Shown one piece after another: positions 10,973 through 35,037 of a DNA stretch of 35,113 nt. Position 1 is the stretch's first letter; every line of letters begins with the position of its first letter. Origin of the DNA: Candidatus Cloacimonadota bacterium (GTDB lineage: Bacteria > Cloacimonadota > Cloacimonadia > Cloacimonadales > JAFGVF01); NCBI GenBank assembly GCA_016838885.1, contig JAEKNW010000296.1:1-35113 (forward strand). The letters are read 5' to 3'. A program made the position numbers and the translations under genes. The notes under the pieces were generated by a model. The model was not told the origin of the DNA, made no database searches, and saw only the letters and a program-made list of their open reading frames with translations.

Positions 10973-12451
10973 ATGAAGATTACAGCCATGATAATGTTTT
11001 TCTTGCTTTCTTTTACTATATTGTTAGCGACACCATTAATAGATAATCTAAGATTCAGTGCGCCTACAAGTGATGAACAAATTATTACTAGAGGTGAATT
11101 AGGATTTTACTACGATGTATCCTTTTATTATAATGGAGATAATGGTTGGGTTTACCAGACCTTTGATGCTATTGAGGATTCTTATAATAGTTATCAAAGC
11201 TCCCTTCCTGCCCCTATAGATGATACCCTTAAGATTGGAATAAGAGCATATAATGATGTGATTTCAGAGACTGACGCAGGTGTGGCTATTCAAGCAATTC
11301 CTTGGGAAAGCCAAGCAATGCCCTTGTTTAATGACTTAAACTGGCTTGTTAATGACACAACTGAAGATACCACTGTTGATGAGACTTTCTTAGATATTAC
11401 AGCCACTTATTTTACTTTTAATGATGAAAAACTATACTTCAGTATACAAAATAATGGGGGAGGATTCCCTGTTAGTGAAGCTATCTGGGGACCTTTCTAT
11501 TCTTATATCTCTCTAATAATTCCTACTGATATTAACTTAACTCCCTTTGGACTACTCTACACCGTTAATCAAGCCGGGATTATCCAACCAGGTTTGTATA
11601 AGATAGTTGGAACAGGGATGAATGATATACAACTTATTGGTTCAATTGAAAGCACTATTGATGCAACGAATAACCTCCTTACCTTAAGCTGTAATTGGTC
11701 TGACCTCTATGCGGATGATGATTTTAATTCATGGTTTGACCCTGAAGAACCTATGTTCAGCACTGTATCAGGCACAGGTAGGATTACTTTGGCAGGCGGG
11801 ATGCAAGAAACAGACTTTACCTATCCTGCAGTTGTTTTTCTTGACTCAATTACTTTGGATCCTCTAGATAATGCACTTCCACAGATTACTGATCTCCATG
11901 AGGATTCGGAAGCTGGTCTTGTTTACGCTACCTATTTAGATGAGAATGGTAATTTCCCACTTACTGCTCAAGCCCTTATTAATGGCGAGATAAGCGTAGA
12001 ATTACAAGCTCAATCTTATGACTTTTCTCAAGAAGTAGTATTTGTTAGTAATCAAGTTGATGAAATACTCAACGCTGACTGGACAGATATTACTGTTATC
12101 TTCTCTGATAACAATATTGATTACACTGAGATGACTATTTACCCGGTATCAAACCTAGATTCTGATCTTGCTCCTGTGCTAACTTCTTTCACAAATTATC
12201 CTAATCCCTTTAATCCTGAAACTACAATCTCCTTTGCTCTGCATGAGGGTTCTCAAGTCAAATTAGAGATATATAATCTCAAAGGACAGAAGCTCGTAAC
12301 ACTATTAGAGGGTCTCTATCCTGCCGGTAAGCATGAAGTGAGATGGGCAGGAAAGGACCAAAATAATAAAGATGTCGCTTCAGGAATCTATTATGTATTG
12401 CTAAAAACTGAAAGTGAAAAACATACCCATAAAATGGTCTTGATGAAATAA
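10973..12451 (+). CDS. Secreted protein with C-terminal sorting domain (T9SS / FlgD-like)
   Basis: A 492-residue exported protein with signal peptide MKITAMIMFFLLSFTILLAT. The body (residues ~20-400) is rich in acidic and aromatic beta-strand sequence and matches no enzyme I know. The last ~85 residues form the sorting domain: TNYPNPFNPETTISFAL, KLEIYNLKGQ, AGKHEVRWAGKDQNNK, VASGIYYVLL, KMVLMK. This domain directs export through type IX secretion or surface attachment in Bacteroidota and is common in Cloacimonadota. The same domain ends the M6 protease at 21094-23748. It follows the barrel gene by 8 bp, with GGAG at 10964-10967 as ribosome site. A 15-nt match to the terminus of element A begins at its stop codon. 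Confidence 0.8.
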   Translation: MKITAMIMFFLLSFTILLATPLIDNLRFSAPTSDEQIITRGELGFYYDVSFYYNGDNGWVYQTFDAIEDSYNSYQSSLPAPIDDTLKIGIRAYNDVISETDAGVAIQAIPWESQAMPLFNDLNWLVNDTTEDTTVDETFLDITATYFTFNDEKLYFSIQNNGGGFPVSEAIWGPFYSYISLIIPTDINLTPFGLLYTVNQAGIIQPGLYKIVGTGMNDIQLIGSIESTIDATNNLLTLSCNWSDLYADDDFNSWFDPEEPMFSTVSGTGRITLAGGMQETDFTYPAVVFLDSITLDPLDNALPQITDLHEDSEAGLVYATYLDENGNFPLTAQALINGEISVELQAQSYDFSQEVVFVSNQVDEILNADWTDITVIFSDNNIDYTEMTIYPVSNLDSDLAPVLTSFTNYPNPFNPETTISFALHEGSQVKLEIYNLKGQKLVTLLEGLYPAGKHEVRWAGKDQNNKDVASGIYYVLLKTESEKHTHKMVLMK

Positions 12452-21093: not shown

Positions 21094-23748
21094 ATGAAGA
21101 GGATTATAATTATAGGGCTGATAATAATGGCTTGTTATGGATTAGTGGCAGTGCCGGCAGCTCCTTATTTAACGACTTATACCCAGGAAGATGGTTCAAC
21201 TTTAGAGATTTATGTAAGAGGTGATGAACGATTAAATTGGTCTGAAACCTCAGATGGATATACTCTTTTAAACCACAATAAAAGTAAATTTTATGCCATG
21301 AAAGATCAAGATGGAGATTTAGTTCTTTCCCAAGTAAAAGCAAATGACCCTGAAAATAGATCAAGAGAAGAGAGAGACTTTCTTAGTTCCATCTCTAAGC
21401 ATCTTAGATATAGTGAGGCTCAAGTAAATATTGCTAATGAAGTTAGAAACAGTAGATTAGGTGGATTTCCCACAAGCGGAGAGAATAATCTATTAGTCAT
21501 TTTAGCTAACTTCTCAGATACAAATCCTACTTACACTCAAGCCAATTTCAATAATATGATGAATCAAAACAACTATAGTGGAGTCGGTTCTTTTAAACAA
21601 TACTATTTGGAAGTATCTTACGGGCAACTAACAGTTAATACGACTGTTATCGGCTGGGTCGATGTCCCTAACACTCATGACTACTATGGACCCCAAAATC
21701 GCTGGGCAGAATTTGCTCGCGATGCTGTTTATGCAGCTGACCCTTTAGTGGACTACTCTCAATTCGATAATGATGATAACGGAAGAGTCGACGGAGTTGC
21801 TATCTATCATCAGGGTAGAGGACAAGAAACAACCGGTGATCCAACTGATATCTGGTCTCATAGCTTCTCTCTATCTGGTGCAGGATACTATGTCAATTTA
21901 GATGGTGTCCAAATAGCAGAATATACAATGCAAGCTGAAAGGCAATATTGGTCAATGGCTGGAATCGGAGTTATTGCCCATGAGTTTGGTCATAATTTAG
22001 GTACTCCTGATTTCTATGATACAGATTATCAAACCGGTGGACAACAAGATGGAACCGGCGAATGGGATATTATGGGATCAGGAGCTTATAACGGTGGGGG
22101 GGATAGACCTGCTCACCATAACATGTGGACTAAAAAATATTTTGGTTGGGTTGACCTGCAAGAACTCTATTATGATGGTAATATATCTCTTCCAAGCTCT
22201 ACTACAAATCCCGTAGCCTACTATTTTACAACCCCTGTTAATGGTGAATATATGCTATTAGAAAACGTTCAACAAACTGGATTTAATGCCTCAGTTCCGG
22301 GTAATGGATTATTGATTTGTCATGTTGATGAGCCTTGGATAATGTCTCATTTAGGACAAAACAATATTAACACAACATCTCATCAGGGATTATATATTGT
22401 CCCTGCTCAAGGTGGAACAAATAGCTCAAGTGCACCTTTCCCAACTTATTCGGTAACATCTTTTACAGATAACAGCTACCCTTCAATCCCTTCTTGGGGT
22501 AACTATGATGTTTCTAAAGGCCTAACCAATATAACTAAAACCGGTGGAGTAGTTAATTTCAATTTCTTTGATAATTCTGCCTATACTCCTAAAGTTACTT
22601 TCACTAATCTCATGAATAATCAGTACTTTGTTCCCGGACAAGAGGTAAATCTGGACATGGAAATTGAAATGTCAATTGCCCAAATGAATATTGATATGGT
22701 AGAAATTTTTGTTAATGGTGTTACTCAATATGTTCATTTAACTGAACCTTATAATTATTCCCTTGAAACAACTATAGAACATGCGGATAATAACTCAGGG
22801 CAGAATGAAATAAAAGTTAGAGTCTATACTAATTTCCAGAATTACGATAGTTACTATTATTTCAATGTTAATTGGGAACCTCGCTTCCTAGACCAATTTG
22901 AAGATTATGAAGATTTCTCCTTAAGTTTTGGAGAATGGGAAGTTATAGATAATGATAATCAAGATACTGTCTATCTGCCATATTATGATTATCCAAATCT
23001 GTCAGATCCTAAGTCTTTTATGATCTTTAATCCAAATGAAACTAACCCCTATAACCGAGAGATCCAGGCTTACTCTGGCGATAAGATGGCTGTGGCCTTT
23101 TCTAACTCAAGCCAAGTTGCTAATGACGACTGGTTGATTACTCCACAACTTGACTTGTCAGTAGTACTTGATGAATATAATAGACAGATGAATCTCAAGT
23201 TTAATGTTCTGGGAACAGACGAAGATGGTGAATTATTCAATGTCTTATACGCAACAGATTATCCTGAATTTGAAGACTTTATAACCCTTAATGAGAGTCC
23301 TATTGAAGCTGAAGAAGAGTGGGCTAACCTATCTTATATCTTGCCTAGTGGGGAAGTCGCAAAAGTGGCTATCCAAGTTGTCTCTACCGGTGGTATGTTT
23401 GTAATGGTAGATGATATCTCAGTCTTCGAAACATTCCCTGTCAGTAATGATGATAACGATATTTCTCAAGTAACCTCTCTCAAGGCTACTAATTATCCGA
23501 ATCCTTTCAACCCTGAAACTACCATTAGTTTCAATATGCCTCAAGCAGGCAAGGCTCAAGTTCAAATCTATAATCTCCGTGGTCAGTTAGTTAAGACTAT
23601 TCTTAATGAAAATATCTCTCAAGGGAAACAAGAAATTGTCTGGAAAGGTTTAGATAAAAATAATAATAAAGTTGCCAGTGGCATCTATTTATACAGAATT
23701 TTAACAGATTCTCAGACTATTCAGAAAAAAATGATACTCTTAAAATAG
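21094..23748 (+). CDS. Secreted M6-family metalloprotease with C-terminal sorting domain
   Basis: An 884-residue extracellular zinc protease related to immune inhibitor A (InhA). A signal peptide (MKRIIIIGLIIMACYGLVAV) is followed by a propeptide-like region to ~125. The M6 catalytic domain has HEFGH at 296-300, preceded by VIA and followed by NLGTPDFYD, and the downstream Met-turn WDIMGSGAYN. Residues ~500-790 contain beta-sandwich modules, one of them a jelly-roll-like stretch (DDWLITPQLDLS...MVDDISVFE) typical of adhesion/MAM-like domains. The last ~85 residues are the sorting domain NYPNPFNPETTISF ... ASGIYLYRILT, shared with the protein at 10973-12451. It is probably used to degrade extracellular protein. 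AGGAAGGA precedes the ATG. A strong hairpin follows at 23784. Confidence 0.93.
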   Translation: MKRIIIIGLIIMACYGLVAVPAAPYLTTYTQEDGSTLEIYVRGDERLNWSETSDGYTLLNHNKSKFYAMKDQDGDLVLSQVKANDPENRSREERDFLSSISKHLRYSEAQVNIANEVRNSRLGGFPTSGENNLLVILANFSDTNPTYTQANFNNMMNQNNYSGVGSFKQYYLEVSYGQLTVNTTVIGWVDVPNTHDYYGPQNRWAEFARDAVYAADPLVDYSQFDNDDNGRVDGVAIYHQGRGQETTGDPTDIWSHSFSLSGAGYYVNLDGVQIAEYTMQAERQYWSMAGIGVIAHEFGHNLGTPDFYDTDYQTGGQQDGTGEWDIMGSGAYNGGGDRPAHHNMWTKKYFGWVDLQELYYDGNISLPSSTTNPVAYYFTTPVNGEYMLLENVQQTGFNASVPGNGLLICHVDEPWIMSHLGQNNINTTSHQGLYIVPAQGGTNSSSAPFPTYSVTSFTDNSYPSIPSWGNYDVSKGLTNITKTGGVVNFNFFDNSAYTPKVTFTNLMNNQYFVPGQEVNLDMEIEMSIAQMNIDMVEIFVNGVTQYVHLTEPYNYSLETTIEHADNNSGQNEIKVRVYTNFQNYDSYYYFNVNWEPRFLDQFEDYEDFSLSFGEWEVIDNDNQDTVYLPYYDYPNLSDPKSFMIFNPNETNPYNREIQAYSGDKMAVAFSNSSQVANDDWLITPQLDLSVVLDEYNRQMNLKFNVLGTDEDGELFNVLYATDYPEFEDFITLNESPIEAEEEWANLSYILPSGEVAKVAIQVVSTGGMFVMVDDISVFETFPVSNDDNDISQVTSLKATNYPNPFNPETTISFNMPQAGKAQVQIYNLRGQLVKTILNENISQGKQEIVWKGLDKNNNKVASGIYLYRILTDSQTIQKKMILLK

Positions 23749-23783
23749 TTTTCTTTGCCACAAATAACACAAATAAACACAAA

Positions 23784-23813
23784 TATAAAGCCTCGCTGAT
23801 GCGAGGCTTTATA
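23784..23813 (+). terminator. Terminator-like hairpin after the M6 protease gene
   Basis: TATAAAGCCTCGC (23784-23796) pairs perfectly with 23801-23813 around the tetraloop TGAT, a 13-bp stem. The right arm ends in CTTTATAATTT rather than a pure T run. It lies 35 bp after the stop codon, just before a cluster of repeats. Confidence 0.8.
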
Positions 23814-23821
23814 ATTTAAAA

Positions 23822-23862
23822 CCGAATGGTGCTATTCGCAAAGGTCTACTGCATTATTTGGG
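23822..23862 (+). repeat. Element A, internally deleted 41-bp copy
   Basis: The first 10 bases (CCGAATGGTG) match the left end of element A. The next 31 match its right end (CTATTCGCAAAGGTCTACTG, then CATTATTTGGG) with two changes, so about 150 bp are missing in between. TTAAAA flanks it on both sides (23816-23821 and 23863-23868), consistent with target duplication of 5 or 6 bp. Element B begins at the next base. Confidence 0.75.
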
Positions 23863-23868
23863 TTAAAA

Positions 23869-24138
23869 GGTTCTCTCTCAAGTAGAGTGGGTAGCGAGCA
23901 AATTCAAGCTTCTCCTTATACTAAACACTGTCCATTATTCCAGTTCCAGAAGAAGGATACCTTTGTAGAATGAGAATGACAAACTTCTTTCCAAGCTCCA
24001 GAGGAGCGACATCTTTCACTGGGAGCGCCAGCATCCTGCTGGCAAACTTGGAGCTCCACAAGGAGCTCCAAGTGAAGATGCCGACAGGAATGTCGGCGAT
24101 CCCAGTAGATTTTTTTCCACTCTACTTGAGAGAGAACC
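23869..24138 (+). mobile_element. Element B: 270-bp non-coding element with 22-bp perfect inverted ends
   Basis: The left end 23869-23890 and right end 24117-24138 are exact reverse complements over 22 bp (GGTTCTCTCTCAAGTAG... inward). The interior is clearly richer in G+C than the surroundings and carries a series of perfect hairpins: GCTCC/GGAGC at 23995-24007, then the cloverleaf module at 24018-24106. Short frames cross it on both strands, but they only read through palindromes and have no ribosome site. Further ends of the family are at 228-249, 24417-24438 and 35016-35037. No transposase is present. It is probably a MITE-like or REP-like mobile element; target duplication is unclear (A-rich flanks). 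Confidence 0.8.
24018..24106. other. Cloverleaf-like four-way junction sequence inside element B
   Basis: A closing 7-bp stem, ACTGGGA (24018-24024) with TCCCAGT (24100-24106), encloses three perfect hairpins. The first is GCCAGCA/TGCTGGC (24027-24043, loop TCC). The second is a 12-bp stem, 24046-24057 with 24062-24073 (loop ACAA). The third is GCCGACA/TGTCGGC (24080-24097, loop GGAA). Linkers are GC, AA, GAAGAT and GA. Only 12 of the 89 bases are single-stranded linker and 11 are loop. It is not a tRNA: no T-loop consensus, and the middle arm is 12 bp. It may act as folded RNA or as extruded single-stranded DNA; function unknown. Confidence 0.75.
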
Positions 24139-24226
24139 AAATTAATTTTATATTGTAAATAGATTTATAAAAAAAGTAATAAAATATTAACTTTGCTCTT
24201 TATCTGAAAGCAGGCTAAATTCCACA

Positions 24227-24361
24227 TTTTCTTAGTGCCTCAAATAGGCATTACAAAAGGGTTTGCCTAGTGATGCCTTTAAGTATCTCGATGAATCATT
24301 GGGATTTCATCGAGATACTCAAAGGAATGATTAAGGTTTCCCTAGGATAAGACTAAGAAAT
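24227..24361. other. Structured intergenic segment, candidate small RNA or further small element
   Basis: TTTCTTAGT (24228-24236) and ACTAAGAAA (24352-24360) form a perfect 9-bp closing stem. Inside, AGGCATTAC (24246-24254) pairs with GTGATGCCT (24270-24278) with one mismatch. AGTATCTCGATGAA (24282-24295) pairs perfectly with 24306-24319. The loop bases TCATT (24296-24300) can pair with AATGA (24326-24330), giving a possible pseudoknot. The segment sits between element B and the purA promoter. I see no match to a known riboswitch, 6S or SRP RNA, and no clear promoter for it. Confidence 0.4.
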
Positions 24362-24416
24362 ATGATATCATTATTGTAAAACATATTTTCAGAAAAATAA
24401 GATATTTTTTAAGTTA

Positions 24417-24438
24417 CCACACTACTTGAGAGTGAGCC
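24417..24438 (-). repeat. Element B terminal repeat, diverged single end
   Basis: The 22 bp match the right end of element B with three mismatches. It has the same orientation as the end at 24117-24138, so 24139-24416 is not a simple second B copy. A palindromic AAGAATTCTT and T-rich runs follow, up to 24485. Confidence 0.6.
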
Positions 24439-35015: not shown

Positions 35016-35037
35016 GGCTCTCTCTCAAGTAGAGTGG
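35016..35037 (+). repeat. Element B terminal repeat, single end at window edge
   Basis: The 22 bp match the left end of element B with one mismatch. The following bases (GTAGCTGACAAATTTAAG) resemble the B interior after its left end (GTAGCGAGCAAATTCAAG). The element probably continues past the window edge. Confidence 0.75.

Follow-up and report, generated by a model that had tools for sequence, protein, structure and literature searches.

A probable REPIN-like element with CTGGGARC-tagged REP units in a Cloacimonadota genome

What kind of element forms a compact, perfectly paired structure between two genes of a Candidatus Cloacimonadota bacterium? The window (the whole stretch of DNA analysed, 35,113 nucleotides, positions 1 to 35,113 of contig JAEKNW010000296.1 of assembly GCA_016838885.1) contains such a module between two long genes that are both on the same strand. 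A first-pass annotation, made from the sequence alone, had described it as four nested stems and had offered several explanations, among them a folded RNA, a hairpin recognised by a transposase in the manner of REP sequences and RAYT enzymes, and an integron attC site. Our explanation, in which we have good though not complete confidence, is that the module is REPIN-like, consisting of two inverted REP units (each 5'-CTGGGARCG followed by a short hairpin) that enclose a palindromic spacer, and that it was presumably moved by a RAYT and would now be an orphan. This reading is built on four direct observations, namely what the module is made of, how many copies there are, that the REP hairpin covaries and that in other genomes the REP adjoins one clade of Y1/HUH transposases.

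Anatomy and copies of the module

Read from the sequence, the pairing at 24018-24106 is free of mismatches in all four stems over 89 bases, as had been described (Table 1). The fold energy of the module is -58.7 kcal/mol, compared with -26.9 +/- 3.3 for 200 dinucleotide shuffles, none of which equalled it. Under DNA parameters the energy minimum is a cloverleaf of the four stems, extended by one closing pair. Under RNA parameters the window copy slightly favours a long rod over the cloverleaf (-58.7 versus -57.2), and the consensus of the copies does so clearly (-65.4 versus -57.4). The rod competes as an RNA fold because the left and right halves of the module are inverted repeats of each other. 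The first-pass annotation had also held that the module is not a tRNA and that it is G+C-rich against an AT-rich background. Both statements are borne out, with no tRNA detected by ARAGORN, no family matched in an Rfam search of the module, and a G+C content of 58% compared with 33% for the window.

Table 1. Positions of the module, its parts and the flanking repeats in the window
Feature	Position	Strand	Remarks
Terminal inverted repeat GGTTCTCTCTCAAGTAGAGTGG	23869..23890	+	22/22 complementary to 24117-24138
Palindrome AGCTCCAGAGGAGC with linker GACATCTTTC	23994..24017	+	5' part of a larger repeated unit common to the copies
REPIN-like module ('cloverleaf'), 89 nt	24018..24106	.	z of the fold -9.5; seven copies genome-wide
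Closing stem, 7 bp	24018-24024/24100-24106		no mismatch
Closing stem, 5' arm	24018..24024	.	pairs with 24100-24106
Left REP unit, CTGGGAGCG with hairpin GCCAGCA-TCC-TGCTGGC	24019..24043	+	
Left hairpin stem, 7 bp	24027-24033/24037-24043		no mismatch
Palindromic spacer of 28 bp, ACTTGGAGCTCC-ACAA-GGAGCTCCAAGT	24046..24073	.	12-bp hairpin; in 7/7 copies
Middle hairpin stem, 12 bp	24046-24057/24062-24073		no mismatch
Right REP unit, inverted, CTGGGATCG with hairpin GCCGACA/TGTCGGC	24080..24105	-	
Right hairpin stem, 7 bp	24080-24086/24091-24097		no mismatch
Closing stem, 3' arm	24100..24106	.	pairs with 24018-24024
Matching terminal inverted repeat	24117..24138	-	22/22 complementary to 23869-23890

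The two outer hairpins are a single type of unit in opposite orientations, in which the tag 5'-CTGGGARCG leads into a hairpin of 7 bp closed by a loop of 3-4 bases, the last G of the tag being also the first base of the stem. The tag and hairpin of the left unit occur at 43 strict sites of the genome that contains the window, and recur across many phyla. The right tag in the window, CTGGGATCG, carries one substitution relative to the CTGGGAGCG of the other copies. Between the two REP units lies the middle hairpin, a palindromic spacer distinct from them, and the closing stem reaches 10 bp in the copy consensus. Two inverted REP units with a short spacer are the arrangement expected of a REPIN, as is the presence of multiple dispersed copies. 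The latter were found in the genome to which the window belongs (3.34 Mb in 350 contigs, rated 99.3% complete), which holds seven copies of the module, that of the window included, dispersed over many contigs. The copies in C252, C260, C153, C316 and C58 are about full length and show 91-97% identity to the window copy, and that in C258 is shortened. In a search for ORFs of 60 aa, two of the six other copies overlapped none and four overlapped only short ORFs of 74-133 aa; several of these copies lie near contig ends.

The repeated sequence is larger than the module itself. The AGCTCCAGAGGAGC palindrome and its linker lie 5' of all copies (in shortened form in C258). C316 and C58 have a second AGCTCCAGAGGAGC palindrome 3' of the module, and C252 has an inverted one there. 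In most copies the repeated unit therefore exceeds a REPIN and another process may have copied the module. The view of the locus as one four-stem module selected for its structure found no support in the comparison of the seven copies, in which there are no compensatory changes in the 33 stem pairs and six of the 33 are broken in at least one copy. Nothing in this family indicates selection on the structure as a whole, and the copies look like decaying repeats.

Spread of the REP unit and its linkage to RAYT genes

The strict REP pattern matches 43 times in the window's own genome, where the reversed control has no match, and between 0 and 2 times in any one of 122 other genomes of the phylum. 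Elsewhere in the window's genome there are single units and further inverted pairs with different spacers, including a pair of 63 nt that is present twice in C215 and a pair in C121 that has further hairpins as its spacer. Among the matches listed, the tag pattern was seen in Acidobacteria, Verrucomicrobia, Chloroflexi, Proteobacteria, Binatia, Latescibacterota, Hydrogenedentota, Melainabacteria and others.

Conservation of the hairpin was assessed in two sets of units. The first comprised 138 REP units from named genomes, fetched by a pattern that left two stem dinucleotides free, and in 119 of these the free dinucleotides are Watson-Crick complementary, compared with about nine expected by chance (1 in 16). 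The second was an alignment of 23 diverse units, hand-picked from those seen, for which reason the dinucleotide comparison is the cleaner test. In this alignment three stem pairs vary on both sides, 27 cells are changed on both sides (shuffled mean 8.3; 27 was reached in none of 500 shuffles) and 96.4% of cells pair, compared with at most 42.4% in slid controls. Because the stem pairs covary in both comparisons, the REP hairpin is seen to be kept by compensation across units, and the tag is kept as sequence. The check for compensatory change that the first-pass annotation had advised thus gave a divided answer, negative for the module, whose seven copies vary uncompensated, and positive for the single REP hairpins, which covary across many loci and phyla.

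The analogy with REP hairpins and RAYT enzymes, one of several in the first-pass annotation, became the favoured reading when the surroundings of the REP unit in other genomes were considered. When a covariance model built from the module was run against the phylum, few foreign matches resulted. The highest-ranking (G003:C70) is located at the 5' end of a RAYT (Y1_Tnp) reading frame, and a further high-ranking one (G038:C116) is downstream of such a frame. The RAYT gene of G038 is bracketed by inverted CTGGGAACG-type REPs, which is the arrangement of a typical REPtron. Two loci, from Pyrinomonadaceae and Verrucomicrobia, that were fetched by DNA pattern alone contain a relative of this RAYT with an adjoining REP; on the Pyrinomonadaceae contig there are inverted REPs on both sides of the gene, and in further named contigs and genomes REPs directly flank RAYTs.

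This association was surveyed in a sample of RAYT genes from this phylum and from motif-bearing genomes, the tag hairpin being scored within 300 bp. Among full-length RAYTs it was present beside 12 of 18 in the closer set and none of 37 others (Fisher 4e-8), the boundary of the closer set, at 38.5% identity, having been chosen after the data were seen. Three scrambled tags gave no matches in the same survey. Part of the genomes had been chosen for holding the motif, and the fairer control is provided by those RAYTs of the chosen genomes that belong to other clades, and these are without the tag. On the RAYT tree the tag label needs three changes, compared with 11 when shuffled. The palindromes beside other RAYT clades are different ones, and judged by eye their feet are often GTAG or GTAA. 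The RAYT genes examined within this phylum (L322-L345) mostly have distinct palindromic repeats of their own on their flanks, again often with such feet.

The consensus of the tag-linked RAYT clade contains the motifs PNHVH and YIENNPVK, and the two clade enzymes from this phylum deviate in the Y motif (YIKKNSIK and YIKNNNSK). One clade member scores above the NCBIfam cut-off for 'REP-associated tyrosine transposase' and the two from this phylum score below it; a PDB sequence search with the RAYT returned nothing useful. At two loci the REP is read in frame. In L128 (1416-2159) it lies within the RAYT reading frame, giving the peptide QAGCLRS (P0001), and in L351 the RAYT match is within an open frame of 1199 codons.

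Linkage of the REP type to a RAYT gene, another feature expected of a REPIN, was thus found in other genomes and not in the window's own. There the linked transposase that the first-pass annotation had advised looking for did not appear, as Pfam family, protein and alignment-profile searches of the 99.3% complete assembly found no RAYT of the tag-linked clade. The only Y1 transposase found (C151; L087:1784-2251) is of the IS200 type, and was rejected as the partner of the module because its flanks hold CCCTTTCAGGGATA-type palindromes without CTGGGARCG. Palindromes, ACCCAGGGTTGCAATTCCTTTCAGGAATTTTACCCTGGGC and CCCTTTCAGGGATA among them, stand in inverted copies on either side of this gene, and part of its flank also adjoins the C258 module copy. 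It is because there are 43 strict REP units and no such RAYT was found that the copies look orphaned as well as decaying. Either the RAYT has been lost, or it is hidden in a repeat missing from the assembly, or the REPs were brought in from another source; many contigs of this genome end in repeats.

By analogy with the systems in the literature, a RAYT of this clade would bind the hairpin while the unpaired tag would guide strand cutting and rejoining, and an inverted REP pair might thereby move as one unit. The module would then spread as a non-autonomous element while in single-stranded form, as may happen on the lagging strand. An enzyme that was lost, is missing from the assembly or was only transiently active would leave copies such as these as decaying orphans.

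The enclosing element and other explanations

The module had been placed inside a mobile element, and in the window it is indeed enclosed by a 270-bp MITE-like element with 22-bp terminal inverted repeats. These belong to an abundant IS/MITE family, with 98 matches in the genome compared with one for a control pattern. The module could be passive cargo, a REPIN-like segment copied along with GGYTCTCTCTCAAGTAGAGTGG-ended IS/MITE elements that are moved by a transposase in trans. The perfect complementarity of the repeats around the window copy and their abundance are in keeping with this, as are related arrangements in C336 and C316 and a MITE of the same family (L004) that has eight identical bases, TTCTTTTT, directly outside both ends. 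However, the copies in C252, C260, C153 and C258 have no terminal repeats beside the module, the terminal repeat in C58 is some 270 bases from it, the window element itself has no clear target duplication, and in other phyla the REP units adjoin RAYTs. Since most copies are without the 22-bp repeats, carriage by a MITE accounts for at most part of them, covering the window copy and perhaps those of C316 and C336 but not the family. We regard it as an unlikely explanation of the module, and favour a REPIN-like element of which the window copy may additionally lie within, or be transported by, a MITE whose terminal repeats are of IS type.

Other repeats are present in the vicinity. The IS-type terminal repeat CTCTCAAGTAGWGTGG is found in the window at 228-243, 23875-23890, 24117-24132, 24417-24432 and 35022-35037, and near the start or end of many contigs, that of the window among them, which suggests that a multi-copy insertion sequence has collapsed. 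Positions 24140-24438 are a second repeat of ~300 bp with about 35 copies in the genome; it has an inverted repeat at its centre (24268-24295/24306-24333), and its terminal repeat belongs to the family found at 23869-23890. A short intergenic repeat at 23826-23868 occurs beside many other repeats of the genome. The proteins encoded at 10973-12451 and 21094-23748 have a YPNPFNPETTISF C-terminal motif, as in type IX secretion sorting domains.

That the module is an RNA element (a terminator, an mRNA stabiliser or a structured RNA) retained for its folded transcript might be supposed from its strong RNA folding and its location between two same-strand genes, but this is very improbable. Rfam matches none, the copies show no compensatory change and several broken pairs, and a terminator-like hairpin at 23781-23816 already lies nearer the upstream stop codon. 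A single functional cloverleaf RNA is further disfavoured by the rod being the better RNA fold; the module may nevertheless have a side effect on transcripts. An attC site, suggested by the imperfect inverted repeat with hairpins and the many repeat copies, is almost certainly the wrong explanation, as the GTTRRRY/RYYYAAC core is absent on both strands and the copies are dispersed over many contigs with no gene-cassette array seen around them.

Relation to described REP systems

The REPINs of Bertels and Rainey (2011; PMC3116915) likewise consist of two inverted REPs and a spacer, are dispersed in the genome and are predicted to form a single hairpin. They are presumed to be non-autonomous and moved by a RAYT, and the same is presumed of the module. 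The module differs in its tag, CTGGGARC in place of GTAG, in having a spacer that is itself a 28-bp palindrome, in the extra repeat sequence that its copies share beyond the doublet and in that no RAYT was found in the same genome. The GTAG and CGTC super-families of Di Nocera et al. (2013; PMC3733652) also have a short hairpin after a conserved unpaired tag, and resemble the present REPs in their complementary stem variants, their dimers and their occurrence in several phyla. Neither strand of the module, however, contains GTAG or CGTC. The REP tags described in passages of three accounts (PMC3733652, PMC6006769, PMC8266576) are of the types GTAG/GTGG, CGTC and, for class 3, CnGA, and CTGGGARC is not among these. 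A literature search by sequence string returned unrelated subjects only, among the matches listed.

Two groups in the TnpA_Y1 classification of PMC6006769, with its motif table, offer further comparisons. REPtrons of subclass 2.4 (Bertels group 4) are likewise scattered over many phyla and have REPs in frame within the transposase, and the NH[IFV]H and YIxNNP motifs listed for this subclass are present in the consensus of the tag-linked clade. On a reading of its motifs only, this clade would appear to be fitting for subclass 2.4, whereas the REPs of that subclass have a GT[AG]G foot and those beside the clade have CTGGGARC. Class 3, from Planctomycetes and Acidobacteria, also has non-GTAG hairpins, a high copy number and overlapping phyla, but its foot is CnGA and its enzymes have a Y----Q type motif in place of the YI.NNP seen here. 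The CTGGGARC tag is set apart from the GTAG, GTGG, CGTC and CnGA tags described in these passages, and the anatomy and linkage are those of a REPIN.

It is conceivable, and we put it forward tentatively, that a REP-RAYT lineage extending over many phyla uses CTGGGARC rather than GTAG for recognition or guidance, that its REPINs can be amplified in a genome without the enzyme, and that palindromic spacers, as also in C121, turn them into multi-hairpin units. The rules of REP recognition have so far been derived from GTAG-tagged repeats, and with a differently tagged repeat, linked to one RAYT clade in many phyla, the guiding of the cut by the tag can be tested independently. A CTGGGARC REP type would account for a short GC-rich motif met repeatedly across draft genomes, and a genome with many REPs and no matching RAYT could help to show whether REPINs persist or spread enzyme-free.
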